Below, piece after piece: positions 12,949-29,029 of a DNA stretch of 64,000 nucleotides. Below the pieces are notes generated by a model. The model was not told the origin of the DNA. It did not search any database and saw only the letters and a list, made by a program, of their open reading frames with translations. The stretch lies in the NCBI GenBank assembly GCA_029834535.1, contig JAQMWT010000398.1:62001-126000 (forward strand). Direction: 5' to 3'. Both the position numbers and the translations under genes were made by a program. The stretch is from Chrysophaeum taylorii. Lineage: Eukaryota; Sar; Pelagophyceae; Pelagomonadales; Pelagomonadaceae. How positions within the stretch are numbered: position 1 is the first letter of the stretch; the number at the start of each line of letters is the position of its first letter.

Positions 12949-13755
12949 TCATCTCCGCCGGCCCCGCGCATAGGCGAGCCAGCCTTGCAGGTCGGGGTTG
13001 TCCAGGAGCGCCTCGAGCGTGCAATATCTCGCCGCTAGAAGGGCGTTGGAGGCGGCGCGGTGGATCGCCGAGTGGCACGGCCGACACACTAGGATACCGT
13101 GCGCGCCCAACTCGGCCTTAGTGCAGGGCTGCGCACCACCGCGCTCCGCGGCGTAGAGAGGCGGCGGTGGTTTGCCGATGTAGCGCGGGTGCATCTCCTT
13201 TGGAATCAAGTGGTGGAAGGTGAGCCTCGTCACGCTGCGGCACAATTGGCAAGTCCCGGGGACGTCCACGTCGTCGTCGTCCTCGGCCGTCGCGCATAGT
13301 TCCTCGCGCGGCGCAACCTGCTGCTTGGGCCACTTGACAAAGGTGACTTCTTGTCGTCCGTCGGCCCCGAGTGGCGAGGAGACAACGGCATCGTGCCACT
13401 CCTCGTCCTCCTCTAACACCGCGAGCACGCGGGTGCCCACCGCGAACTGCCAGTCGAGGATCATATTGGCACGCAGTGCGTCGACCACCTCCGCAGCACA
13501 CGACTCGTCCAACGCATCAGCGTCGGCGTTCTCGAAGGCTTCCTCGATTTCATCGAAAACAGCGCTCACCATCCCTTCCCAGTCCGCAACGCTGCAAACC
13601 GGTGGCGCGTTGGCCGCGAGCGTCGCGCAGAACAACTCCACCACGTGCGCTCCGCGCTGCGACAGCGCTACGCCGACGCTTTCGCGCACCAGTGCCTTGA
13701 CGACGCGATCCGTAAGCTCGTCAAAGTCGTCATCATGGCTCCACACTAACTCCAT
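12949..13755 (-). CDS. HNH-like nuclease-fold protein with SH3/Tudor-like module
   Basis: A 268-residue protein starting at the ATG 13755-13753. Residues about 1-100 are acidic and helical. Residues about 103-150 (FAVGTRVLAVLEEDEEWHDA...) resemble a Tudor/chromo-barrel module. The C-terminal half has CQLC, then TFHHLIPKEMHPR, then CRPCHSAIH: two CxxC pairs around HH and H residues, the layout of the HNH/ββα-metal fold. A conserved-looking tail (YCTLEALLDNPDLQGWLAY) follows. Whether it cuts DNA or only binds zinc is unknown. It lies next to the repeat-rich left flank of the protease/Fanzor region but looks like an ordinary intact host gene. Confidence 0.75.
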   Translation of the reverse strand: MELVWSHDDDFDELTDRVVKALVRESVGVALSQRGAHVVELFCATLAANAPPVCSVADWEGMVSAVFDEIEEAFENADADALDESCAAEVVDALRANMILDWQFAVGTRVLAVLEEDEEWHDAVVSSPLGADGRQEVTFVKWPKQQVAPREELCATAEDDDDVDVPGTCQLCRSVTRLTFHHLIPKEMHPRYIGKPPPPLYAAERGGAQPCTKAELGAHGILVCRPCHSAIHRAASNALLAARYCTLEALLDNPDLQGWLAYARGRRR

Positions 13756-13833
13756 CGAGTAAACCTCGCGTCACACGGAGGTTGAAACTTAACCCTAAAC
13801 CCGTTTCGCTTACACCCACCCTCTCATTTTGCG

Positions 13834-13999: not shown

Positions 14000-14240
14000 G
14001 TTTCGCGAGTTAACGGCAAGTACCCTTTTCACCTGCGCCCCTTGGCGATGACCACCCGCCTTTCAGGCAGACGAACTCTCTTGAACCCTGTGTCCTTACT
14101 ACTAACCGGCAGATGTTTGTTTGTTTGTTTGTTTGTTTGTTCGTTTGTCTTTAAAGGTCGACTGCTAAGAGGGGGGTGTCTGTCTGTTTGTCTTTAAAGG
14201 TCGACTGCTAAGAGGGGTGTGGGGGGCGGGGGGCATGAAA

Positions 14241-14296
14241 GATGTGGGTGGTTTTGTGGGGGTAGGAGGGATGTGCCTGACGGGCGGAGATAAGTA
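14241..14296 (-). repeat. Right arm of an inverted repeat (partner 13834-13884)
   Basis: Reverse complement of the left arm; a related sequence occurs again at about 15193-15222 and, inverted and diverged, at about 42895-42955. Confidence 0.7.
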
Positions 14297-14374
14297 TGCG
14301 GGAACTAGTCGGGGTCATCGCCGAGTCGTGGGGCAGGCGAAGAGAGGACGGGCCCCGCCCGGAGGTCGTATAGC

Positions 14375-14781: not shown

Positions 14782-15196
14782 GTCGTACGCATGCTGCCGC
14801 CGGATGTGGCAGTAACGCCCATTCCCCCACTTGCCTGCCTGCCACATGACTTACCCTGGTTGTTGCCCTGGTACTGACCTTGCAATTATGGGGGGGGGTG
14901 TCGTCTTGACACCCTCACCTGCGCTTCCACTGAACCAAATGCGCCAGGTTTTTGTGTTGCTTTCTTGCTGTCTTCTTGCTATTACCCTCATTTTGATTGT
15001 CCGATTTCGTGATGGCGCGAGGTATTACGCTGAGATCGGGCGTGTGGTGGTTTCACCCGCGGTTCGGGTTGGGAGGAAGAGTTGTTGAGGCCCCCGGTCC
15101 GGCCAGGAGGGGCGGGTATCTGAGAAAACCACTACACGGACTGTGCGACTTTGTCTTTAAATGTCGACTGCTAAGAGGGGGGGGGGGGTGGGGCGC

Positions 15197-16672
15197 ATGA
15201 AGGATGTGGGTGGGTTTGTGGGGAATTGGAATGCAGCGGAGGTGGTGGTTCGGCGCGCCGCCGAACGCGAGCTCTTCGAGATCCGACGCAGGCGAGGGGC
15301 TCTGGCAGAAAATGAGATTCGCCTGAATCATACCAAGTTCAACATGACGAAGCGTCACTTCTGCCGAAAAAAAAAATATGTAACACCGGCGCTTCGAAAG
15401 CCGCTGGATAAATCTAAGCTCAGAGCGACCGATGACGCGCTAGGCACGGTGTGCGCAGAAGTTAAAGAGCTCGACGCACAGGAATGCGAACTCGAGTCTC
15501 GCGAGGGACTGCAGAAGCGCATCGCGGCCCATCTCAGACCGCGACTGTTGCGCCGGATCAAAATCGTCGAGTCCGCGCTCGACAGACGGCGTGCCTGTCG
15601 GAAAGCACCTGCTTCCGTCGACGAAGACCTCGACGCGGCTCGTGGTCGACCGAAGCAGGTGGGTTCGTCAGACCAGCCGCCGTCGTGCACGGTGTCCACC
15701 TTCCAAGAAAAATCTGCGCGATCTAGCAACGACACGTTGCATGTGTCGAGCGACGGGATGACGAGCAGTACCGACGTTCTGAGCGACGTCGCACGTGGCC
15801 GGAGTTCGCCGGCCAGGCCGCTTTTCAGCGCACTCGGGGACGAGCATGCCCCCAACCTTGCCGAGGCAACGTGCAGTGCGGGCGATGGCCGCGAGGCGTC
15901 ATCAAGCATGGGTCACGCGGATCGTGCGTCGTCGACGAGTGACTCGGTCCTCGACGGGAACGAGTCGGGTGGCGACGTTGTTCCGGGCGCCGATGACTTG
16001 GAAAGACAAGCCTCGTTCACCGCGGTAGGCAACGAGTCTGTCCACCAGGGCGAAGATGACCCGAACGACGACGACATGCATTTGCCAGACGGCGACGATG
16101 AAGCAAGAACCGTCATCGATGATGACGAGATTTTTAACGACCAGTGGCGGGAGATTGCCGTCCACTGGGGCACCGCATCGCCCGGGACGACCAAGCGCGG
16201 CGAGGCATGTGCGGGAGCCGCGAGTCTGATCTCAGACAACGACTCCGAAGTTGCTTCCCTCGTTGACGACACAGACAAGGACGAATTTGACCGCGAAAGT
16301 TTGGTGCGCCGGCGGGAGGCCCAGGGGTTGTGTGCCGACGGACGCGCGGGCGGGAACATCGAGCAGCGGCCACAGCCCGAAATCATCGAGGCCGGCGGCG
16401 TGCCAGACGAGCAAAAGCAGGAACTGAAATCCTCCCTAGTAAAATCGCTCATCGGTAGCCACGACGTGCTGGCTGCCGAGGGCCAGCGTGCGCTTGAGCA
16501 AGGGGATGACGTTACTGCCGGAAGGGTCATCCGGGAGCTTCGGGTGCTTGAGACACGGGTGAGCTCAGCGCTCACCCTGTGCAAAAAGCTGGTGCCGGAG
16601 AGGGGGGGGGGGAAGGGGTGCCACGATGGCCGTGCGCGGGGACGAGTCCGTCGTCGTCGTCGAGCCCGGTAG
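15197..16672 (+). CDS. Acidic, low-complexity protein or N-terminal part of the USP/Ulp1 reading frame
   Basis: The frame is open from 15161, but its first codons lie in a copy of the GTCGACTGCTAAGAGGGG repeat, so the ATG at 15197 is preferred. The product (about 491 residues) starts with charged helical sequence (residues about 15-150, Arg/Glu-rich, possible coiled coil), continues as a long Asp/Ser/Glu-rich disordered part, and ends with a helical segment containing LLDE-style charged heptads. At an 11-base G-run (16602-16612) this frame turns into Arg-rich junk while the +1-shifted frame becomes a good USP domain. It is therefore probably the N-terminus of the protein that continues downstream, interrupted by an indel or assembly error. 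No catalytic motif is seen in it. Confidence 0.5.
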   Translation: MKDVGGFVGNWNAAEVVVRRAAERELFEIRRRRGALAENEIRLNHTKFNMTKRHFCRKKKYVTPALRKPLDKSKLRATDDALGTVCAEVKELDAQECELESREGLQKRIAAHLRPRLLRRIKIVESALDRRRACRKAPASVDEDLDAARGRPKQVGSSDQPPSCTVSTFQEKSARSSNDTLHVSSDGMTSSTDVLSDVARGRSSPARPLFSALGDEHAPNLAEATCSAGDGREASSSMGHADRASSTSDSVLDGNESGGDVVPGADDLERQASFTAVGNESVHQGEDDPNDDDMHLPDGDDEARTVIDDDEIFNDQWREIAVHWGTASPGTTKRGEACAGAASLISDNDSEVASLVDDTDKDEFDRESLVRRREAQGLCADGRAGGNIEQRPQPEIIEAGGVPDEQKQELKSSLVKSLIGSHDVLAAEGQRALEQGDDVTAGRVIRELRVLETRVSSALTLCKKLVPERGGGKGCHDGRARGRVRRRRRAR

Positions 16673-19008
16673 CGCTGCCCAACGTCTCGGGCGAGGATTG
16701 CTTCCTCGTGACGACCCTCGAGCTTCTCGCATGCTCGACGCTCGTGCGCAATTTTTTCCGAGACGACGGCGCTTTCCTCTCCGATATACCGCGCAGTTGG
16801 GATGCCCAGCGCCCGACTGTCAGCGGCGTGCTCTATCACATCTTCGAGAAGATTGAATTGGCCGCTCGAGAGAACAATAAAATTTTCGACGACTCGAATG
16901 CGCGCTCGCTCGTTTCGACGCTCCGCGCCGTTGTGGTCGCCAAGCAGGGAGAGCTGCCACTGGCAGTGCGAGTGGACGAGCGCGACCAAGTACCCAAATC
17001 AGGGCCCGGGTGTTGCGGGCTACTGCTCCACACGCTTATCGCTCTCGTGCAGTGCGAGCTGTCTTGCAGAAAACCCAGCACTGCCTACGGGCTTGGTCGC
17101 CTCGTGACGCCTGCTTTGCTTATGCCGGAGGGCGAGGGCAACGATGCGACTACAGGTCTCACGTTCGCCGAATTGCCCAACAACATCCGCCTCGATGATG
17201 ACGGCGATGAAGTTTTCGAAAATGCCGAGGACGTCGAGGACGAGGTCGCGAAGTTCGCGTATGCGCTCGAACCCGACCAAGGACGAAGACGCAACGTGCT
17301 GCTCAGAGCCCTTCTTGCCAGGAAAAGCAACAACGGGAAGCTCGAGTACGAGCTCGTCACTCTTGCGAGGGATCGCTGCTACGTGGTCGAGATGCTCGAT
17401 GCGTGCTGGTATCATCACGCGTACGTGCTAAACAACAAGCGGGCGGACGACGATAACCAAGCGTCACCTGTGTGCGTGGCTGCGGACGAGGACGGCCACC
17501 TGCGCGTGCTGCGGGGTGCGTCGCTGATCGGCGAGCCGTCGACCCTTCGCATACGGTATACGATCAACCTCCCCGTGCGCAATGAATCGGGGCAGCTGGG
17601 ATCATTGGAAGAGTGCGTCAACATGGCGAGCGTCGTCAACGCTGGGGATGTCGCATTGCTCGTCCTCGAACGCCGATGTGCGGTTGGGCAATCACATTTT
17701 TTCGAGAGCACCAACCACGCAATAAGCGTGCCCCAGACTGTCGATTTTTGCGATGTGACATGTGCTACCCGTGGAGTCATCGTGCACTGCCCGACAGTCA
17801 CTGGCGCCCACAACGTAGCGTTATGCCGCGACCAAGACGGGTGGCGGGTGATCGACGGCAGAGGCGGGACATCCAGCGGTCCTAAGGCAACGCTGAGCGA
17901 CATATTCTTCAATGAAAACGCCGACGTGTGTGACGAATGTGCCTCGGGCGCCAATTCCGCCGAATGCCTCGTACACGCCGTGCTCGTTGAGGCCCAGGAA
18001 CCAAAGGGGACGCCGGGCTCGCGCTCTTGGCGGGGCCGCGACGAGGCACTTTCGCCAAACAACGTGCTCGACATCGCTCACCTCGAATACGTAGTCGCGC
18101 CAGAACCAAATACGCGCGCGAGCGATGAGCTTGTCGCCAAGCAAGACAGGCGATCCGCCCTCTTGCGTTTCCTGGGACTCCGCCCAGTGGCGCACCGGGT
18201 TTTCCAGGCTCAACTGACGAAGAGAGGCAATGGCCCAATAGGAAGGATGATCGAGGGCAAATTTCAGGCTCTCAGCATTGGGGGACTCGTGTCATCAAAA
18301 AGTGGCGAGCAACCAAAAAACATACCTGAGCGTGTGAAGGAACTTTTCGAGATGTTCATGCACCTATTTGAACGTGCCCATGCCGTCGAGTTGATTTGGA
18401 CTCTTTGTCAGGAAATCAAAACTACGAATATGGCAAAAAAGTCAATTGTCAAAAAAACCCGAGTTCAAAGAATGGAGCTCCAAGTTGACTGCGCCTCTCA
18501 TCTCGAACACGACATCGAGTCAAGAAGGGAACCGGAGAACGTCGTCGTGCTCCCGTGGACTGGGGCGATGGGCGATGATGAAGGTGAACTCAACGGAATG
18601 CTAAATGAAGATGCACGTACTGAACGTCGCGTCGAGACGTGCATCTTCCACACAGAAAAGATCGTTGGTCTCCGAAATTGCCCGACGCACCCACCCCCAT
18701 CCGACGGCCAACCTTGTCCCTACTGCGACAGCCAAAGCCTCCGCCCGACTGTTTACATCTCTGTTGAAACCTCCAAGTTTCCGACCATGGGCCTGATTCT
18801 TGAAATTGACGCGATGCAACCCTTGCCGCGCGCGTTCGTGTCTTTCGAAGGAAATAGACGAAAATTATGGTCCACAATTTCGGTGCTGCTTTGCGGAAAC
18901 GCGAACTGTGGAAACGCGAACTGGATCCTCCTCGACATTGACGAAGATGGCCATCGTGCAAATGTGCGGGTAGGTGGCGCCGCAGTCGCCACGGCGGTGA
19001 ACAACTGA
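16630..19008 (+). CDS. USP-like (peptidase C19-like) segment: modules a and b
   Basis: Module a opens with a Cys box EDCFLVTTLELLA (Cys codon 16699-16701) followed by LVRNFF, in the position of the GNTCYxN box of ubiquitin-specific proteases. A His-box-like GAHNVALCRDQDGWRVID follows near 17800-17850, where GHYxA...WYxFDD would be expected. Module b (about 18300-18990) keeps only the C-terminal half of a USP: two Cys pairs (LQVDC and CPYC), the strand LILEIDAMQPLP and a WILLDIDEDG tail. The segment ends at an in-frame TGA (19006-19008), and the same frame is open again at once. By analogy USPs remove ubiquitin; here several key residues are altered, so these may be non-catalytic folds. No start codon of its own is convincing. 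Confidence 0.55.
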   Translation, partial: PCAGTSPSSSSSPVALPNVSGEDCFLVTTLELLACSTLVRNFFRDDGAFLSDIPRSWDAQRPTVSGVLYHIFEKIELAARENNKIFDDSNARSLVSTLRAVVVAKQGELPLAVRVDERDQVPKSGPGCCGLLLHTLIALVQCELSCRKPSTAYGLGRLVTPALLMPEGEGNDATTGLTFAELPNNIRLDDDGDEVFENAEDVEDEVAKFAYALEPDQGRRRNVLLRALLARKSNNGKLEYELVTLARDRCYVVEMLDACWYHHAYVLNNKRADDDNQASPVCVAADEDGHLRVLRGASLIGEPSTLRIRYTINLPVRNESGQLGSLEECVNMASVVNAGDVALLVLERRCAVGQSHFFESTNHAISVPQTVDFCDVTCATRGVIVHCPTVTGAHNVALCRDQDGWRVIDGRGGTSSGPKATLSDIFFNENADVCDECASGANSAECLVHAVLVEAQEPKGTPGSRSWRGRDEALSPNNVLDIAHLEYVVAPEPNTRASDELVAKQDRRSALLRFLGLRPVAHRVFQAQLTKRGNGPIGRMIEGKFQALSIGGLVSSKSGEQPKNIPERVKELFEMFMHLFERAHAVELIWTLCQEIKTTNMAKKSIVKKTRVQRMELQVDCASHLEHDIESRREPENVVVLPWTGAMGDDEGELNGMLNEDARTERRVETCIFHTEKIVGLRNCPTHPPPSDGQPCPYCDSQSLRPTVYISVETSKFPTMGLILEIDAMQPLPRAFVSFEGNRRKLWSTISVLLCGNANCGNANWILLDIDEDGHRANVRVGGAAVATAVNN

Positions 19009-20995
19009 CGAACGTGCCGCTTTTTAGACAACGGGGAAGTTACCGACGACCCAGGCTTGGGTAACAGCGTCGACGAATACAAAAAACTCGTGCTAGCACC
19101 GATTCCGACGAACACGGGGCAGCCCCAGTGTCGACGTCGGGCTTTGACATACACGGCGTCGGGTTCGAATGCGCTGAGTCAACGGTTGTCTGATGTCGTG
19201 ACCACCATGCAAGAGGCCCGCGCGTGGGCAGACGTCGTCGGAATTTCCAGCGCGCTCGGCCGTGTGGAAAACGAAAGTGGTCTGAGTCCACTTGCTAAGG
19301 CACTGCTTGTGGATGTTCCTGCGACAAAAAAAAAGGAAGTGACGTGGCAGCCCATGCGCGAAATTTTGGGCGCTTCATCCCGGGGCGAAAATCCCTTTAA
19401 CGTTCTTCAAGACATCGCCAGCAACAACAGTGACGACGGGCACAGGGAGTTGTCGGCGACCCGCGATGCCCAAGACGCGGTTACAATCGCCAATTTTTGG
19501 CGCAACACCGAAGCAACCGAAACGATGCGGACCGTGATAAACGACGGTATAGATCACGAGTACCTCAGAAGTCATCGTGGTGAACTTCGGGACCGTCTCA
19601 GCAACCAGAACTTGCTCATCGACGTCATTATCGTCGAATGCGCCAAACTCATTCAAAGGCGCAACGAGCAACTCGATCTCGGGGAAGGGACCTACATCAT
19701 CGATATTCTCTACAATTGGGCCCTTGTGGAGAACGCGATTACAAATCCGGCCTTTTTCGGGAACGTGACAAACGAGCTCGATAAAGCCAACGGGCTGATC
19801 CGAAATGGCCATATGGACCACTTATGTGGCCTGCTTGATTTTCTTCGTACCGAAGACGGTCCAGTGAAAGTACTTGTGGCGAGATGTCGAGCTGAGCATT
19901 GGACCCTCCTGGAAATGGACATTCCTCCTCTCCCAACTAACCGAGGAGAGACGAGGCGATGGCACCTTGCGTGCTGGGACTCGGCGCGGCACCACAACGA
20001 GTCGCCAATAGACTCAGACGTGGTCAACACAGTCAAGGTCGTGGCCTTGGCCACCGGCCTTTGTCTCCGCAGGGATGCCTCGCCCGGTGGGAACCCAGCC
20101 CCGAAAAGAAGGAGACGGGAATCATTGTCGCCTGAACCAGAACTCAATGTAACCGTCGAGGATGGTGGATATAACCCACTATTGGGCAGCCATCCTCAAC
20201 ACGTGGTGCGTCAGGCTAATCAAGACTGTGGCGTCACGGTCATCAAAACGCTCGACGCTCGTTCGATTGGCGTCGAACCGTCGTGGACGACAGATAAGCT
20301 CACCAGCAAGGGGAGGTGGCAGGTTGCCTTCGAGCTAAAGAAAAAAATGACTCTGTACGAGTACATCATTCAGAACAGGGAGCATTCCCAAGCCCTGCCA
20401 CCACTCGCGATGTTGCATCTCGCGAGCCCACAGACCGTGATGATGACGTGCGCGTCGTGCGAGCAAGTGGAGCGCAGTGCGGCGACAATTCCACTGCTGC
20501 ACGACACACAACCCGAAGATGCAGAGGTCGCTGACCTCTTTACGGGGCGCGCTCTCGTCCGGCGGCAGTGTGCCGGGTGCAAGACCTCGGGACTCGCCTA
20601 CGTCCAGATGGTGTTGCCGAGCAGAATGAACGGGGGGTCTCCGCCACCGGCGCTGACCTTTGCCTTGGAGTGCAGTCGCGAGGAGGGGCAGGGTCTCGCA
20701 CCAAGCGAGCGCCTCGTGTTCTCCGACGAACAATGTAAGCGGGCATACGATCTCAAGGCCGTGCGAATGGTCACCAATAACAACGACGTTCGCGTCGCCG
20801 TGCGCGACGGGCGAGACGTTCGAGTCGATTGGATGAGGAGCAGTAGCGGGTCGACGCTCGAGAAAAAAGGGCCGGAGAGCTATGAAACGTGGGGCGACGT
20901 GCCCTGGCGTGGCGAAATGCGTTTCTATTACGCCCTTGCATCCGTCGAGGATGCGTGCGGCGGGCCGAGGGGTGCTCCGAGGGGTGATCCCCGCA
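19009..20995 (+). CDS. Ulp1-like (C48) SUMO-type peptidase followed by USP-like module c
   Basis: The frame continues from the segment upstream after one TGA; the first in-frame methionines are internal. At about 19570-20260 it shows the Ulp1 fold order: LLIDVIIVECAKLI, YIIDILYNWALV, then the catalytic His in AEHWTLLEMD (19897-19899), Asp in CWDSA (19978-19980), and RQANQDCGV with the oxyanion Gln and nucleophile Cys (20227-20229). All four catalytic positions are present, so deSUMOylase-like activity is plausible. A KRRRR patch (near 20100) could be a nuclear signal. From about 20350 a USP C-half follows (module c): TCASC, CAGC and LPSRMNG...LTFALEC, like the zinc finger and strand of USPs. 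Near 20995-21060 the coding character moves to the next frame. Confidence 0.6.
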
Positions 20996-20999
20996 CCGT

Positions 21000-21763
21000 T
21001 TCGGAAGCAGACGGCACTCCGACAACAAGACGACGCGACTCAGCGAGGAATAGAAGACGAGACAAGAACCCCGCCGCGCTCCCATCCCGAGCAGGGCTTA
21101 GTGGGCATCGCTTTGGCCTCGCAGGGTGACAGCGTACCATGTGCGGCGGCGGCGGTGCTGGCGCTCGCGCATTCCGAGATCTTCCAGTTCTACAGCCGGC
21201 GCATGAAATGGGGCTGCCATCTTGGGTCGCTGGTGACCTACTTTCGAGACGAACGTGGTCTCAACGCGCGGACCGTGACGGCCGTGGTCCTCGCGACCAT
21301 TCTCAACGCCATCGGTCGCTACAACGAGGCAAGCCCGATAGACGGGGGCCCTTTGTACGAAGCCTTCCGGGATCTCACAACTCCGAAGGACGTTCTGGAA
21401 ACGACAATCGCCTCCATGCAGACCGCCCTCAGTTTCGGGATGGGACCTCGAAAACCGCACGACGTGCTCTGTGGCTCGCGCGTGGGGAATTCATGTCAAT
21501 GCGGGCAGAGTGGCCAGCACGTGACCGGGCGGACACACGAGTACGTCCACCGGGTCACCGTCCCACTACCAGTGCCTGGCGAGAATCCGGGCGGAGACGA
21601 GGCCGCAAAAATCGCGGCCGCGCTCGTCGGGCAGTGCGCGAATTGTGAGACGAGGCGGATCCTGCTCGAGCCATCGGGCGGGGCGTTGTTTGTCGAATAC
21701 GAGCCGACGGTGCCCGGGCAGGCTGCCCAGAGCGTGCGTCTACCTCTCACCCTCACGCTCTAA
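21000..21763 (+). CDS. USP-like module d
   Basis: The clearest N-terminal USP box of the downstream part: GLVGIALASQGDSVPCAAAA with Cys at 21140-21142, then a helix LALAHSEIFQFY. A finger follows with CQCGQSG (near 21495) and GQCANCETRR (near 21635), separated by VHRVTVPLPVP. It ends at a TAA with no His box in this frame. The frame overlaps the end of the previous one, which becomes Arg-rich after about 20995. The shift to the following segment lies near 21750. Confidence 0.5.
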
Positions 21764-21765
21764 GC

Positions 21766-23775
21766 CCGCGGCGACATAACAGAACGAACGCCGGCGATAC
21801 GAACGCGCGGGAGCAGGCGACTGATGACATCGACGTAGAAGCGCGGAATGAGGCGCTTCGCCGTTTGGAAGGGGAACTCGGTGACGCTAAAACCAACGAC
21901 ATTTTTGGCCCGCGGAAGTACGCCGTCGTCGGGCGGGCCAGAGTGGGTGGCGAATGGGTGCGCTACGACATCGGCCTGCCGGCGTCCATCATCGACCCGG
22001 GCCCGTTGTCAGCGTGCGAGCAGCAGATTCGGTTGACGCCAACTGGCCACGGCGTCGTCCGCGTCTCCGCAGATGCTGTCGACGTCGATCGTCGCGACGC
22101 CCACCTCGTCGTATACGAGGCCCAGAGTCCCCGCAATCGCGACGCTCGAAATGCGCTCGCCCGCGTCGCTCCTGGGGCGACCTACGGCAATGTGCGCGAG
22201 GTCCGACAGGCCGCGGGATTCAAGATGGATCCCCTCGAGAGTCGGAAAACAAAGCGCAACTCGCGGCGCTTTCGGCTGCGACCTCGAAACAGTTCGGAGA
22301 GGTTTTTGAGCGAGCACGTCTATTTCAAGCCCCTGGGGCCTATCAACACGGGCATCACCAACAGGCGCGGCAATCATCGTGCCGATAACGTGCTTGTCGC
22401 TTTGGCGAGCGTCCCAGAATTTTTTGCCGCGGCGAACACTAACCAACTTTTGCTGCTCTTAAAGACAGGTTCTCACAACCCTAAACTGCCGTTCGAAGGC
22501 TCAAAAGCGACCTGCACGGGCGTGGCCGCGGCCTTCCTGACCAAGGTCATGTCAAGAATGGTAGCGCCTCTGCCCTTCGGACGACCGGTTTCCCCAGCAG
22601 ACGGCACGGACTTTGTCGATGCGCTCATCGCGCTATCGATGGGGTCGCAAAGGGGTGCTCGTTTCGTCGTGACGCCCAAAGGTTCCGCCCACGCCGGCGC
22701 GCTGTGCCAGCACGCGCTCACCCGCGTGATCAGAGACACGCGCTCGGTGAATTTCGAAAACGGGCGTCATTCGCCGCTCGCGCGCTTTTTCCACTCAACG
22801 GTGGAGATACGCGTCAATTGTCGTCGAAATTGCGCTTCAAGTGGCGGCAGGTGCGAGCTGTGTGAGAAAAGATCCGGATGCATTCAGCGCGTGGCGTGCT
22901 TCCCCGTAGTTTCTCCCCGCGATGGAGGCGCCGTGCAACTCTCGCAATTGATCATCCATCGAAGTGTAGCACATCGAGACGACGTGCCCTACGAGTTCGC
23001 CTTCTGCGGCGAGCGCGAGAGCACCACTGTTATGGAAGATCTCGAGATAAAAGAGTGGTCCGAAGGGAGGCTGTGTGTGAGCATCATACACAGCGCTGTG
23101 GGAGAGGAGGAAGACCAAGAAGACGCCGTCGACGAGAACGTGGAGCCCTCGGCGACTCCAAAATTGGTGATCGACGAGGAATTCACCACCGTCGGCAACG
23201 CACCGGCAAAAAAATTCAACCTTCGATCCGTGACGGTGGGAGGTCTATGGGGCTCCAAATGTTATTACAAAGGCAAAGACGGCGCGATATACATGCACGA
23301 CAACGGCGTGCTCTCGAAAACGGACGACGCTGGCTGGTCGGCCCAGCTCCTCGCATCACTTGCTCCCAACGTCGAGCTCGTCATTTACGATCGCGAGTAT
23401 GGTCTCAACCTCACGCAGATCATACGGGACGCGCAAAAAAGGTACGAGTTGCCGAAAGTGCCGGCCTCACCGCGCCGCTGGGAGAACAAGATCTACACGC
23501 TGCGCAAGCAGTGTGGATTGCGCGTGCCCAATTTATGGATAGACGAGAACGACGACGGGCAAATAAGCTCGTTCGAGGAGACCGACCTCGCCGACAGGGA
23601 GTACGACGAGGAGGAAGAGAGAGCTGAAGGACGGCGCGACGGCGAACAAGAAAGATTAGCGATCCTCGAGCAGAATCACAGCGACTTGAACGCCAGTGTG
23701 ATAGCCTTGCAGGACGAAAGCAATGAATTGAAAAACAAGCTCCTTGCGAATCAATCAGAGGCGCTTGTACAGTAG
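21766..23775 (+). CDS. USP-like module e with coiled-coil end
   Basis: Open from about 21766 without an ATG at the start. After a linker rich in Arg and Ser, GNHRADNVLVALASVPEFF (near 22370-22425) aligns with a USP Cys box, but the Cys is lacking. ARFFHSTVEIRVNC plus further cysteines (near 22780-22880) correspond to the F/LFxG and zinc-finger part. KFNLRSVTVGGLWG...YYKGKDG (near 23210-23290) corresponds to the YxLxAVxxHxG...GHY end, with the His changed. The C-terminus (about 23600-23760) is Glu-rich with leucine heptads. This module looks catalytically dead. Confidence 0.5.
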   Translation, partial: PRRHNRTNAGDTNAREQATDDIDVEARNEALRRLEGELGDAKTNDIFGPRKYAVVGRARVGGEWVRYDIGLPASIIDPGPLSACEQQIRLTPTGHGVVRVSADAVDVDRRDAHLVVYEAQSPRNRDARNALARVAPGATYGNVREVRQAAGFKMDPLESRKTKRNSRRFRLRPRNSSERFLSEHVYFKPLGPINTGITNRRGNHRADNVLVALASVPEFFAAANTNQLLLLLKTGSHNPKLPFEGSKATCTGVAAAFLTKVMSRMVAPLPFGRPVSPADGTDFVDALIALSMGSQRGARFVVTPKGSAHAGALCQHALTRVIRDTRSVNFENGRHSPLARFFHSTVEIRVNCRRNCASSGGRCELCEKRSGCIQRVACFPVVSPRDGGAVQLSQLIIHRSVAHRDDVPYEFAFCGERESTTVMEDLEIKEWSEGRLCVSIIHSAVGEEEDQEDAVDENVEPSATPKLVIDEEFTTVGNAPAKKFNLRSVTVGGLWGSKCYYKGKDGAIYMHDNGVLSKTDDAGWSAQLLASLAPNVELVIYDREYGLNLTQIIRDAQKRYELPKVPASPRRWENKIYTLRKQCGLRVPNLWIDENDDGQISSFEETDLADREYDEEEERAEGRRDGEQERLAILEQNHSDLNASVIALQDESNELKNKLLANQSEALVQ

Positions 23776-24001
23776 CTTATTGACCACGATCATACTCACC
23801 GTCTGTTCATTGCGCAGATCCTCGAGTGCCTCAAAACACTTACGTCGACGGGCGCAAATCGAGAAGAAGAAGTACCGATGCCGAGCGGGCGCCCGAGAAC
23901 CAAGGGGGCAACCTCACGGCAGGTTCGAGTCCAACGGTGTCGGAAGGAGAGGAGGACCCGCCAAAGCGAAAGGGTAGATTCGCATCATCGCGCGTCGTGT
24001 A
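23776..24001. other. Gap between the USP-like segments and the Fanzor relic
   Basis: 226 bp; one frame reads EGEEDPPKRKGRFASS near 23950-23990, so a short exon or the lost N-terminus of the Fanzor gene may lie here. No ATG is convincing. Confidence 0.35.
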
Positions 24002-26805
24002 GTGTGGTATGACACAGGAAATGCCCAGAGCAAGCGCTTCGCGGCATGGCACTCGGCGTACGAGGCCCGCACGCACATTGGCTACCTCTCGTCGTTTTAC
24101 AGCGAAAGCGGGCCCGTCTTCGAGGACAACCTGGGCAAATCGCACTCGGTGATCGGCATCTGGCGACGCGGGTTGAATTCGTTGGTCCACCTCTCACACA
24201 CTCGGCGAAACATCGCCATGCATGCCCTCGCGTACGACGTGCTGGCGGATGTCGACAACGCGGATTCGAAATATTCGACGCCACGTGCGTACGTCGGGGC
24301 ATGCAGGGCCCTCGATGCGGCGTTCGACGGTAACAGCGCGAGTACTTCACGCTGTCGCCCGTCTTTATCCCAAGGCACGGTCGAAGCCGTTATCTGTTCT
24401 AAACGCGAATCTGACGACGTTCGACGAGCTCAGGGTGTGCGCTGCCGAAGCGAAGATGGACTTTGCGCAAGTCGACGCCGAGATCGCTATAAACGCAGCG
24501 CAAAACCAAAAACAGACGGTGGTGGTGCACGACTACCAAGAGCGCGTCGCGCACTTTCGCTTCATGACGCAGCCGGAGATCATTAGGCAATAATGGAGCA
24601 CGGTGCAGGAAAACACGTCGGAAGGCGCAAGGCTGCGAGACGCATTAGACTTCGACGAGACGGGGTGGAGGCAGATCCGCTTCGCTATCCACCCCCCCCA
24701 AAAAAAAACGCAGGAGAGGGATCCTCCGAACCCCTACGACGTGCCGATGAAGCTTACTGGCAATAGGCCCGTGAGCCACCGTCAGGCAGCCCGAATGTTG
24801 GCCGAGGCCTACGGCCAGGCCTCGTGGGACCCCGACAAGCGCGACTACTCGCGTGTTGCCCTTTCGCCGCTCTACCAGTTCGTCGTCAAGCTCTACGCGA
24901 TCGAACATGCTACGAGGTTCGCGAGCCGCGAAGAGAAAAAAAAAATTCGGCAAAGTTGCTAGAGGCCGAAAAGAAGACCTCCAGCGGTTGCTGGAAATAC
25001 TGCGGCAAAAAATCAAGGCGACCCTCGAGATTCTCGAGTACAGTCGCGTGGCTGCGCGACAGCAATCTATAGGCGACGACGGCGCGGGCGACGATCCGGC
25101 CGACGATCCGTTGGTCATCGCCAAGGCGTACGACCCGGGCGCCCTGTTTCCGCTCATGCACAAAGACAGCTACATGCCCGTTACCGACGCCATCGTACAG
25201 GAGGGCTTACGGTTTATAGTGAGATGGTTGGGCATAGACGTGGACTTGGACTCGCTTCCGACCGTTGGCGTCGACGACCTGTACGACCTACGGAAGGCGT
25301 GCAAGTCCCCGAACCGTGCGCCGACTATGAAGAAGATTATCTTCACGGACGGCATCGGCGTCCGGATCCCCGTCGGTCGTCGGAGGGATCGTCGTCGTCG
25401 CGTTGGGCACGAGAGCGGCGACCAAGAGAGCGACGACGGGGTCGCCGTCGAAGAAGAGCCCGAGGAGGCAGCAGAGGCCTTGGACGACACGCACGCCGAC
25501 GCCGGCGAGTCCGAGAGTCCTCGAGCGGGCGTGAGAGCGCCGATGCACGAGCAACTCGCGCAACGCCAGTTGCTCACGGAGCGACTGTCAGCGCAACGCC
25601 CCCATTTGGGACGCCCACTGCTCCAGCCGCCCATGCGACCCCGGCCGCCCGAACAGCCACCGCCGGAAGCGGACGGCGATGGCGGCTTGAACCTCGACGA
25701 CTGCGACATCTTCGGGGCGATTGATCCAGGGATCAAGTACCCCGTCAGCATGCACGTGGTCGATCGCGGTAAGGCCGAGGGTGTTGGCCTGCGAGCCGAT
25801 TGCGAGCTCAGCTCGAAACGTGCGCGTCTGCACGAAAAGGCCCGAGCCGAAGGACGTCGATCGCGACGCATACGCTCGCACTTCCGCGACCCGCAGGACC
25901 AGAACGCGTTGTGGACGACGTTGCGGGTTTCTGCGAGGGACGTGCGCAACAAAGCCCGAATCGAGAATCACGTCAGGAGGCGCAACAGCCGCTGGGCAAG
26001 GGAGCAAGAAGCTCGGAAAGACGATATGCAAGGGCCGTTGGAAATTGACATCGACGACGAGCGGCGCCGTAACCCCCGGACGAAGGAGGATGTGCTCGAC
26101 GCGCTCAAGACGTACCTCAAAAACCACGACCGAGGCAACATCATCGAGAACAGCAACAGGTCCAAGCGCCAGCGCATGGCGCTGATCTAGCGCAAGCAGT
26201 CGTGGCGGGCGGGCGTGGCAAACCGCGTCGCGCCGCCGCGAATGCGGGTAAGCCTCGGGTACGGCGACCGTGCCGCGAAGTTTCTCGGGCCGAAGCAAGC
26301 AATCAAAGTCGGCGTTGACAGCGCGCCCGAGAAGCAGGTGGCCAAGGAGATCACCCAGCGCGACAACGTCTCGTCGGCATACACCGGCGAACACCGGTCC
26401 AACTGGACCTGAACTGGACCTGTTGTTTTTGTGGGGGGGTTGTGAAGCAGCACGTCCACGGGTCGGGGAAGGCACACGGCACTTCCTACTGCACATCGTG
26501 CCACGTGATGTATCGACGCGACGTGCTCGCGTCTCGGATCCTGGCGCAGACTGCTCTCGCGAACGCGACGGGCGTCCAACGACGCTGGTCGAACACCCAG
26601 CGACCACAATCCCACGACACCGACTACGCGCTTCGTGGTGACGGCGACGGAAGCGAAGCATACGTCGACGGGAATAAGGACAAGGGCCTCGGGAAATACT
26701 TATCGACCAAACGTCGCAATATTGCCAAAGAACGAAGAAAGTCTGTCGAGGAGGAGACCTTGGTTGCGAGAGCATCCCGCCGATCCACCACGGCCGACGC
26801 TTAAA
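24002..26805 (+). pseudogene. Fanzor (eukaryotic TnpB/IscB-type RuvC nuclease), broken
   Basis: Fanzor proteins are RNA-guided RuvC nucleases related to transposon TnpB. The order of Fanzor landmarks is present across changing frames. An N-terminal helical part (24002-24345, shifting frame near 24330-24345) runs on past an in-frame TAA (24591-24593) into an SHRQAARMLAEAYGQA segment, to a 10-base A-run at 24936-24945 where the frame shifts again. Then come IIFTDGIGVRIPV (25340-25380), the pre-RuvC strand typical of Fanzors, and RuvC-I in DIFGAIDPGIKYPVSMHVVD with Asp at 25723-25725. After an in-frame TAG (26188-26190) follows VSLGYGD (near 26250-26268), the usual xGxGD block. A last shift leads to CTSCHVMYRRDVLASRIL with a CxxC ribbon (26490-26501) and the RuvC-III Asp (26520-26522). 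Three frame changes and two in-frame stops suggest decay, unless some are introns or assembly errors. Confidence 0.72.
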
Positions 26806-27250
26806 CAAAAACCCACCTTGCCCGTGCTTCCTTCCTTCCTTCCTTCCTTCCTCAAGCCGCCGCTCTTCCACCATAAATTCACCACGCTCGCAGGTGCACG
26901 ACGACGACGTCAAGTCGACCAGCTCTGGAGCGCGACGCCCCCAATCGTCTGTCTTCAAGTCGACCCCAAGAACAACCACCCAATCCTAAACCCTCATCGG
27001 GTCACTTGCCAGCCACTAAATTTCCCGCAAAGAAAAGAGTCCTGAATGAAGCGTGAAGTGGTGGTTTGGGGTGTGTTATTAGGTATATAGGGGGGGGGTG
27101 CGAGACAGGAGCGTTTGGTTCAATCGGTCGTGTGCAGCATCGTTGCCGCGTCCGCGTCTGGAGCTGCCCTCGCACGGGAAAGAGAGAGAGGCGTCAGTGT
27201 CTCTTTGGAGACGAACGAACTAGAGCGAGAGAAATTATTAGTAACCATCA
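26806..27250. other. Intergenic with (TTCC)n tract
   Basis: No gene seen. (CCTT)n at about 26827-26852 and a G-run at 27090-27099. The right edge of any element carrying the Fanzor would lie here; I found no clear inverted repeat to the 13.8-15.2 kb block. Confidence 0.4.
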
Positions 27251-29029
27251 ATGGCGTGGCGCGTCGTGTCGGTGTTTGTGGTCGTCTTTCTCCGCGATGC
27301 GTTGGCACTGTGGTCGCCGCGGCCGCCTAGCCCCTCGGTTATTGTCGCTTGGGCGAGGAGCGGAGACGTCGATCGAGGGCTTCTTTTGGCTCGCCTCCGA
27401 CAGACAAGACGCCGCCGAGAGCTCGACAATATCCTCGACCAGATCCTGCCTTTACGAGGCGTAAAGGAGGCGACAATCGTCATCAGCGCGTACGGACGCA
27501 CCAAACAACCCTTCCAAGCGCTGGCGGTTCTAGATCAAATGCGACAAGTTGGCATCACGCCCAACGTGATCACGTACAGCGCGGCGATATCGGCGTGCGA
27601 GAAGGGCGGCCAGTGGGAGAAGGCCGTGGGGCTGCTCGACGACATGCGACAGCGCGGCCTCGAGCCGAACGAGATCTCGTACAACGCGGCGATCTCGGCG
27701 TGCGAGAAGGGCGGGCAGTGGATGAAAGCGCTCGAGTTGCTCGACGAAGTGCGACACGGGGGCCTCCTCGAGCCGAACGTGATCACGTACAGCGCGACGA
27801 TCTCGGCGTGCGAAAAGGGCGGGCAGTGGCAGAAGGCGCTCGAGCTGCTCGACGACATGCGACGAGATGGTGTCGAGCCGAACGTGATCACGTACAGTGC
27901 GGTGATATCGGCGTGCGAAAAGGGCGGACAGTGGGAGAAAGCGCTCGAGCTGCTCGACGAGCTGCGCCGAGGCGGCCTCGAGCCCAACGTTATCACGTAT
28001 AGTTCGGTCATCTCGGCGTGCGAGAAGGGCGGTCAGTGGGAGAAGGCGCTCGAGCTGCTCGAGGAAATGCGACAACATGGTCCCGAACCGAACGTGATCA
28101 CGTACAACGCGGCGATCTCGGCGTGCGAGAAGGGCGGCCGGTGGGAGAAGGCGCTCTCGCTGCTCGACGAGGTGCGACAGCGCGGCCTCAAGCCGAACGT
28201 GATCACGTACAGTGCTTCGATTTCCGCGTGCGAGAAGGGCGGTCAGTGGGAGAAGGCGCTCGAGCTGCTCGACGAAATGCGACAACATGGCGTCCACCCG
28301 AACGTGATCACCTACAACGCGCTGATCTCGGCGTTCGAGAAGGGCAAGCAGTGGGAAAAGGCGCTCTCGCTGCTGGACGAGATGCGACGAGGTGGGATTC
28401 AGCCGAGCGTGATCACGTATAGTGCGGCGATCTCGGCGTGCGAGAAGAGCGGCCCGTGGGAAAAAGCACTGGTACTTTTTAACGAGATGAGGCAAAACGG
28501 GCTCGCCCCCGACGTGATCGCGTATAGTGCGGCAATCGCGGCGTGCGAAAAGGGTGTCCAGTGGGAAACGGCGCTGGCGCTCATGCGCGAGATGCAGCAA
28601 CGCGGCCTCAAGCCAGACGTGATCGCGTGCAGCGCGACGATCTCGGCGTGCGAGAAGGGCGGACAGCTCGAAATGGCGCGAGCAGCCCTCGTGCGGTTTA
28701 TAAGCGCTGGATGTTACTCGAGCGTCTGGACCGAGCAAGGTCGCCTCGATTTACACGATCTTTCGGTGCCCGTCGCGCGCACGCTCGTCCGCCTCGCGAT
28801 TCACGACATGAAGCATCGGCCCGAAGATCGGTACTTTCACGACGCTGCCGTCGCGGGCCACTTGATCGTGATCACGGGCCGCGGCAAGCACAGCGAGGGT
28901 GGTGCGGCGCTCGTTCGCCCGGCTATTCTCGACATGCTGCGAGGGCCCGAGTTTGCGGGGCGGGTCGAGTGTCACGAAGTGCCCAACAATCCCGGGCGGC
29001 TCGAGATTCGGCGTGCCAATATGACGTAG
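27251..29029 (+). CDS. Pentatricopeptide-repeat protein with C-terminal SMR domain
   Basis: A 592-residue protein. The N-terminus (VSVFVVVFLRDALAL) is hydrophobic and may be an organelle-targeting leader. From about residue 70 to 455 there are eleven 35-residue PPR repeats with consensus VITYSAAISACEKGGQWEKA, several nearly identical in DNA as well, plus a degenerate last one. The C-terminal SMR domain (about 500-592) has LDLHDLS and ITGRGKHS, the motifs of the MutS2-related nuclease/RNA-binding fold. PPR-SMR proteins act on organelle RNA (plant pTAC2, SVR7 and GUN1 are examples). The residue pairs at positions 5 and 35 are regular enough to predict a binding site (see findings). The SACEKGGQW style is common in heterokont and dinoflagellate genomes. 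Confidence 0.9.
   Translation: MAWRVVSVFVVVFLRDALALWSPRPPSPSVIVAWARSGDVDRGLLLARLRQTRRRRELDNILDQILPLRGVKEATIVISAYGRTKQPFQALAVLDQMRQVGITPNVITYSAAISACEKGGQWEKAVGLLDDMRQRGLEPNEISYNAAISACEKGGQWMKALELLDEVRHGGLLEPNVITYSATISACEKGGQWQKALELLDDMRRDGVEPNVITYSAVISACEKGGQWEKALELLDELRRGGLEPNVITYSSVISACEKGGQWEKALELLEEMRQHGPEPNVITYNAAISACEKGGRWEKALSLLDEVRQRGLKPNVITYSASISACEKGGQWEKALELLDEMRQHGVHPNVITYNALISAFEKGKQWEKALSLLDEMRRGGIQPSVITYSAAISACEKSGPWEKALVLFNEMRQNGLAPDVIAYSAAIAACEKGVQWETALALMREMQQRGLKPDVIACSATISACEKGGQLEMARAALVRFISAGCYSSVWTEQGRLDLHDLSVPVARTLVRLAIHDMKHRPEDRYFHDAAVAGHLIVITGRGKHSEGGAALVRPAILDMLRGPEFAGRVECHEVPNNPGRLEIRRANMT

Follow-up and report, generated by a model that had tools for sequence, protein, structure and literature searches.

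Features of the locus

The stretch of DNA analysed here (the window) comprises 64,000 nucleotides, positions 62001-126000 of contig JAQMWT010000398.1 (C398), from Chrysophaeum taylorii (Pelagophyceae), whose 70.8-Mb genome is assembled in 697 contigs, denoted below in the same manner, and has USP and Ulp1 genes of its own that mark it as eukaryotic. On its forward strand lies what we read, with a probability of roughly 0.6, as one dead member, truncated at its 5' end, of a multi-copy family of eukaryotic mobile elements with peptidase-like modules and a TnpB/Fanzor-like gene (Table 1). DNA matches to other copies begin at window position 15226 (C317, C546, C46 and C481) and stop at 26995-27013 (C317, C546, C55, C538, C54 and C443), and the copies share these ends yet sit in unlike flanking DNA. 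The protein from the frame bearing the Ulp1-like module (19009-21129) finds 25 matches in the genome, on 10 contigs. The last 504 bp of the element (26500-27003) have at least 29 genome matches and a 441-bp stretch of its 5' end has at least 9, both counts being lower bounds; 3' ends are thus in excess among the copies. A host gene was considered and rejected, because copies with different flanks occur on many contigs. An earlier, sequence-only reading of the same DNA had seen here a protein stringing the modules together; a working protein or a host gene is not supported, and we find a truncated and broken copy of a mobile element. That reading had overlooked both the repeat nature of the region and the Fanzor-like gene at about 24.6-26.8 kb.

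Table 1. Features of the element in the window, in order of position (all coordinates are those of the window)
Feature	Position	Strand	Remarks
Mobile element as present in the window	15226..27003 (end about 27003)	+	Delimited by DNA matches to other copies; 5'-truncated
Start of polyprotein frame as left in the window	15226..16672	+	Acidic, read in frame +2; no domain recognised (sub-threshold Striatin match, E=0.11); none of 5 tiles matches the USP profile at P<0.1
USP-like module 1	16642..18111	+	Cys box 16681-16713, His box 17803-17859
Stop codon in frame, separating USP-like module 1 from the Ulp1-like module	19006..19008	+	C55 reads through in one frame
Ulp1/C48-like module	19534..20355	+	His 19897, Asp 19978, Cys 20227
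USP finger-like segment	20443..20811	+	Two Cys pairs (finger 20443-20583); no catalytic His by eye
USP-like module 3	21104..21763	+	Frame +2; Cys pairs 21488-21508 and 21629-21649
Loss of ~65 bp in the window copy	21778..21778	+	Present in C317, C546, C55, C54 and C443
USP-like module 4	22351..23307	+	By eye, lacks a His and has no Cys where the Cys box would be
TnpB/Fanzor-like gene, broken frames	24611..26804	+	Matches of the C546 681-residue open reading frame to C398, motifs, frames
Common 3' end of the element	26805..27003	+	At least 29 genome matches to 26500-27003; closes near CCTAAACCC..CGGGTC with a short hairpin

Two peptidase-like module types in one putative coding unit

The central module of the element is Ulp1-like, with the predicted catalytic His, Asp and Cys in place. 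The codons for these residues are read exactly where the sequence-only reading had put them, in the contexts RAEHWTLL (His), ACWDSA (Asp) and RQANQDCGV (Cys), and the order His-Asp-Gln-Cys is kept within the Ulp1 landmarks. The Gln that it had also listed is present, standing 5 residues before the Cys and not 6 as in three host Ulp1 sequences. When the copies were aligned against these host sequences, the Cys motif had P=0.0017 and none of 100 column shuffles did as well; against the C48 protein of a sister family described below, the values were P=0.014 and 2/100. The element was further scanned with 40 unselected tiles of at most 160 residues, overlapping by half and with none dropped. In this tiling the Ulp1 profile reached P=0.0093 and 0.00098 at the two tiles that hold the Cys, and no other of the 40 fell below 0.1; the reversed profile brought 4 of 40 tiles below 0.1, two of them the same Cys tiles, with a best value of 0.04. 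The module shares its catalytic residues with Peptidase_C48 (PF02902) and lies below Pfam detection, the Pfam model giving no match to it. More generally, searches of the open reading frames (ORFs) of the window family against Pfam, PHROGs, NCBIfam and PDB sequences did not recognise the protease modules and returned sub-threshold matches only, among the best of them the PHROGs family abc2 anti-RecBCD (E=0.012) and Thioredoxin_3 (E=0.037); a sub-threshold PDB match to mS66 (E=0.0037) fell on the zinc-binding stretch of the Fanzor-like ORF.

The strongest support for C19-like and C48-like modules standing together in one putative coding unit comes from Pfam calls in the sister family of the same genome. 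In its copy on C409, consecutive ORFs exceed the Pfam cut-offs for Peptidase_C48 (25.5 bits, cut-off 20.7) and for UCH (24.6 bits, cut-off 23.9), the latter over profile positions 1-141 of 254, which bears out the earlier suggestion that modules of the two types are strung together. The sister UCH protein matches a profile of host USPs with P=0.00041, and the sister C48 protein matches the host Ulp1 profile with P=2.1e-6. Pfam matches to Peptidase_C48 are also found at C29 and C40, and the C48, UCH and Fanzor-like matches follow one another in the same order on C409, C586, C29 and C40. Less complete copies hold the tail of the C48 ORF only, followed by UCH and Fanzor (C314), UCH and Fanzor matches (C671 and C9), or, next to Fanzor, 37 residues that match the beginning of the C48 ORF (C350). 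Judged by match coordinates, the C48 and UCH ORFs meet in one frame in C586, C29, C40 and C314, and not in C409; the catalytic part of C48 lies in that frame in C586, with 4 stops inside, and is shifted in C29 and C40. Because no break is common to all copies, we infer a single original C48-C19 frame in the sister family, of which none is intact among the copies seen.

USP-like modules

The window element also appears to hold USP-like remnants, collectively above background but individually weak. With a profile built from 7 host USPs, 5 of the 40 tiles had P<0.05 and 7 had P<0.1, compared with 0/40 and 0/40 for the reversed profile. The matching tiles start at 16642 (Cys-box columns), 17122 (C-terminal columns), 20242 and 20482 (finger), 21350 (finger), 22261 (Cys box onwards) and 23461 (C-terminal columns). 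They are not independent, since tiles overlap by half, and those at 20242 and 20482 cover one finger; the match at 23461, on an acidic stretch, is possibly spurious. Outside the core, none of 12 tiles (5 starting before 16642 and 7 from 24000 on) reached P<0.1. Where the sequence-only reading had counted at least five USP pieces, four regions are supported (Table 1), and the segment 18300-18990, one of its five, gives no signal (P of 0.32 and 0.41 at tiles 18322 and 18562).

Taken singly, module 1 matches at the USP Cys-box columns (P=0.029, 0/100 column shuffles as good; tile P=0.011), and its His box is equalled by 4 of 100 shuffles. The finger-like segment matches at the finger columns (P=0.041, 0/100; tile P=0.015), as does module 3 (P=0.076, 4/100; tile P=0.057), and module 4 gives P=0.023 with no shuffle out of 100 as good. 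Set against the USP order of Cys box, finger and His box, module 1 has the Cys and His boxes; only parts of the series are seen in the finger segment and in modules 3 and 4. By eye, Cys and His are both kept only in module 1 of the four regions. The window modules thus agree with UCH/USP (PF00443) at landmark columns; three of the four lack the Cys and/or His, and all lie below Pfam detection, with no PF00443 match for the ORFs of the window or for those of the C55 copy.

Comparison with the sister family divides the modules. The 1219-residue frame of C55, which holds module 4, aligns with the sister UCH protein at a blastp E=0.001 over 260 columns (0/200 shuffles as good), and with a sister USP profile module 4 alone stands out (0/100), the remaining values being 14, 17, 89 and 94 of 100 shuffles as good. 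Two of these (17 and 94) belong to module 1, which is shuffle-like in this comparison. When host and sister USPs were combined in one profile, the numbers of shuffles as good, out of 100, were 0 for module 1, 12 for module 3, 3 for module 4, 1 for the finger and 2 for the His box.

These figures bear on a sceptical explanation, in which the Ulp1-like module is the only true peptidase relative and the USP-like pieces are unrelated Cys-rich segments that resemble USPs by chance. It would account for the fact that Pfam calls no USP-like module, for single-module P values of 0.02 to 0.16, for the shuffle-like behaviour of modules 1 and 3, the finger and the His box against the sister profile, and for the lack of a match between the 1170-residue C55 frame, which holds module 1, and the sister UCH protein (E=1.8). 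We nevertheless regard it as rather unlikely, given the 7 matching tiles against none with the reversed profile, mostly at corresponding USP columns, and given the alignment of module 4 with a sister protein that itself lies above the UCH cut-off.

The TnpB/Fanzor-like gene

In both families a Fanzor-like gene lies downstream of the peptidase modules. The window copy reads the Asp of DPG at 25723, a Glu at 26389 and the Asp of RRD at 26520, together with zinc-ribbon Cys pairs at 26421 and 26487, and is interrupted by stops at 26188-26190 and 26410-26412. The Fanzor-like proteins of the window and sister families match each other with E=4e-9 (0/200 shuffles as good), and the sister protein retrieves the copies of the window family on C393, C546, C563 and C267. 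PMC3627910 gives the Fanzor/TnpB motif as D-X(125,275)-[TS]-[TS]-X-X-C4 zinc finger-X(5,50)-RD. The C546 protein has D371, then 225 residues to SNWTCCFC, followed by CTSCHVMHRRD, with N at the second [TS]. The motif spacing fits, and we call the predicted protein Fanzor-like, not a proven member of the family.

Two further observations concern the sister gene on C409. At L053:6808-8034, RE stands at the place of the RuvC RD that the window family retains, and the sister Fanzor-like nuclease may be inactive because of this substitution. At L053:3-1349, upstream of the sister C48 ORF, the end of a 448-residue ORF resembles the N-terminal half of the window-family Fanzor-like protein, with a TDG motif and a blastp E=0.66. 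This is a hint only that the sister peptidase block sits between two halves of a Fanzor gene; if the likeness were real, the block would lie inside that gene.

Reading frames and decay

Frame +1 of the window copy is open from 16552 to 21129 save for one stop, so that the Cys box, the His box, the Ulp1-like module and the Cys-pair finger stand in one frame. The remaining modules are read in frame +2 (20837-21763) and again in frame +1 (21649-23775), with a frame change near 21100. The part upstream of 15226 is absent from the window copy; in C55 it holds two hydrophobic stretches, recognised by eye. The copies on C317, C546 and C55 are likewise broken, and their longest open frames are those of 1170 and 1219 residues in C55 and of 681 residues in C546.

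Ends of the element and mode of movement

Sequence upstream of the window copy's 5' limit is present in C546 (about 1.54 kb more), C55 and C317, and C317 and C460 have a further ~130 bp in common on the 5' side, terminating in a hairpin, whose energy is -18.2 kcal/mol in one of the two copies examined and -13.1 kcal/mol in the other. A query over this 5' terminal stretch gave 42 genome matches, itself counted, and 32 of the 41 non-self matches start within query positions 387-393; one match, in C245, lies upstream of a diverged copy of the same element. From copy to copy, the 5' ends vary. No clean pre-insertion site was found, as the left flank of C546 recurs in C145 and the right flank does not follow there, and no target duplication was seen by eye.

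The hairpin stretch is also a repeat in its own right: C317:447209-447330 and the 41 further matches on other contigs define a unit of ~120-130 bp that starts sharply and has a strong hairpin. In C317, C460 and C245 this unit makes up the element's 5' end, and it is present in other places too. A larger family of non-autonomous elements may have it as their 5' end. On the left of the window copy, the DNA at 14150-14300 and 15150-15225 shows by eye that the sequence adjoining the element has a second occurrence ~1 kb upstream, which places the window copy in or beside another repeat.

PMC3627910 describes the Fanzor1 elements of Chlamydomonas as non-autonomous Helitron2 elements that are 5'-truncated with an intact 3' part, share 5' ends with Helitrons, carry hairpins and have 3' ends in excess. 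The present element has two traits of such elements, the 5' terminal hairpin and the 3' excess of copies. With Fanzor1 CRe-1/2/3 of Chlamydomonas and the unclassified MCi-2 of Mucor (PMC3627910), it shares a Fanzor-like gene towards the 3' end, a variable or truncated 5' part, over-represented 3' ends and a 5' terminal hairpin. It is unlike them in its length of ~12-13 kb and in its giant putative polyprotein with C48- and C19-like modules; that paper uses none of the words protease, peptidase, Ulp1, ubiquitin or OTU (PMC3627910). Helitron RepHel genes have 40 matches in the C. taylorii genome, several with long open frames, and a source of rolling-circle transposase therefore exists.

Truncated 5' ends and constant 3' ends would equally result from target-primed reverse transcription of a retrotransposon resembling long interspersed nuclear elements (LINEs), which would agree with the excess of 3'-end over 5'-stretch matches and with the varying 5' ends. 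We consider this origin improbable: Pfam matches listed up to E values of 1 or 5 include no reverse transcriptase, the 5' hairpin and the widely repeated 5' terminal stretch are unlike LINEs, and a like 3' excess is described for Fanzor1/Helitron2 elements (PMC3627910).

Descent from an integrated large DNA virus or virus-like element, of which the locus would be a remnant, is another candidate. Fanzor genes and Ulp1-like proteases both occur in such viruses, and the putative polyprotein is a large orphan. PMC3627910 also reports that large DNA viruses have Fanzor proteins. Scans of viral contigs with the window Ulp1 frame and with the C546 Fanzor-like ORF confirmed no relative, no viral hallmark gene is among the matches, and the many copies have common ends, all of which makes a viral remnant highly improbable.

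The reading of the locus as a decayed mobile element with peptidase-like modules and a Fanzor-like gene, moving in a probably Helitron-like manner, has to be set against several results that weigh on the other side. No transposase was recognised in the element by searches of Pfam and the other family collections. The sole contig with both RepHel and the 5' terminal repeat is C48, where the two lie ~24 kb apart. Inverted repeats between the ends of the element were not significant in 8 comparisons (31 to 383 of 500 shuffles as good), and the RNA fold of its 3' end did not exceed shuffles (z of -0.64 and -0.56). With respect to the proteins, the window Ulp1 frame matched the sister C48 ORF with a blastp E=0.035, equalled by 5 of 200 shuffles. 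The ORF that follows the UCH ORF on C409 reached 20.3 bits for a Cas12f1-like zinc ribbon, under the Pfam cut-off of 26.3, and its Fanzor motif, with 212 residues to SSMTCPNC and then CTSCSMCWGRE, ends in RE for RD. Structure prediction of the modules, proposed along with the sequence-only reading, was of no help: single-sequence AlphaFold models of the Ulp1-like module and USP-like module 1 were unusable, with mean predicted local distance difference test scores of 38.3 and 34.3, and a Foldseek search with the first model gave nothing at E<=0.001 (best 0.22). Lastly, coding constraint between copies is weak. The ratio of non-synonymous to synonymous substitution ranged from 0.30 to 1.47 over 31 comparisons and stayed under 1 in 29 of them, though out-of-frame stretches may enter into some, and codon-position bias was found at p<0.05 in 3 of 8 copies.

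Possible role of the peptidase modules

Transposons with peptidase domains of these types have precedents. PMC2836005 notes Ulp1 or OTU domains in Ginger1 and Mutator transposons and a C19 domain in a Trichomonas transposase, and suggests for such domains a role in transposition, in which they may activate repair factors. The likeness to the present element is that these, too, are DNA transposons with peptidase domains of the ubiquitin/SUMO type. In the elements of PMC2836005 the domain lies inside the transposase, whereas here no transposase is recognised; the C. taylorii element is further unlike them in combining C48 and C19 types and in the adjoining Fanzor-like gene. For Fanzor elements, PMC10432273 discusses the possibility that RNA-guided cutting at the sister chromosome aids their spread.

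A mechanism can be suggested by analogy that joins this idea of Fanzor spread (PMC10432273) with the role proposed for Ulp1, OTU and C19 domains in transposons (PMC2836005). The complete element would encode one large polyprotein with two hydrophobic segments, acidic linkers, serial USP-like modules and one Ulp1-like peptidase, and after it a Fanzor-like nuclease. It would be non-autonomous and probably Helitron-like in its movement, relying on a transposase from another source. RNA derived from the element's 3' end would direct the Fanzor-like protein to cut the element-free chromosome, and repair of the cut would copy the element back. The ubiquitin/SUMO peptidase modules might then free the nuclease or the repair machinery of tags, allowing the complex to persist or influencing the course of repair, and USP-like modules without Cys or His could serve as a binding scaffold. 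Action on both ubiquitin-like tag systems, as the sequence-only reading had it, is putative, three of the four USP-like modules lacking Cys and/or His by eye.

Taken to its full extent, this would define a class of elements that pairs a Fanzor-type RNA-guided nuclease with a ubiquitin- and SUMO-removing polyprotein, in which C48 and C19 activities protect or license the nuclease and the repair intermediates and spread depends on reversing host tagging; we hold this generalisation to be distinctly unlikely as it stands. On the evidence of the predicted proteins, the mobile element bears a Fanzor-like gene and, in addition, peptidase modules of the C48 and C19 types. No report of C48 together with C19 in a Fanzor element was found in the literature searched, with most subscription papers outside our reach. 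If the two types are indeed carried together beside a Fanzor-like gene, the role of peptidases in transposons becomes a testable question, and the activity of the sister C48 and UCH proteins on ubiquitin and SUMO can be assayed because Pfam recognises both ORFs. A Fanzor-associated peptidase family would also widen the known cargo that travels with Fanzor.

Neighbouring features

Two ORFs flank the element in the window. On the reverse strand, an ORF at 12949-13770 has a weak match to an HNH endonuclease (E=0.082, below the cut-off). Downstream, an ORF on the forward strand at 27245-29029 contains, by eye, about a dozen repeats of the form VITYSAAISACEKGGQWEKALELLDEM and resembles a gene for a PPR protein.

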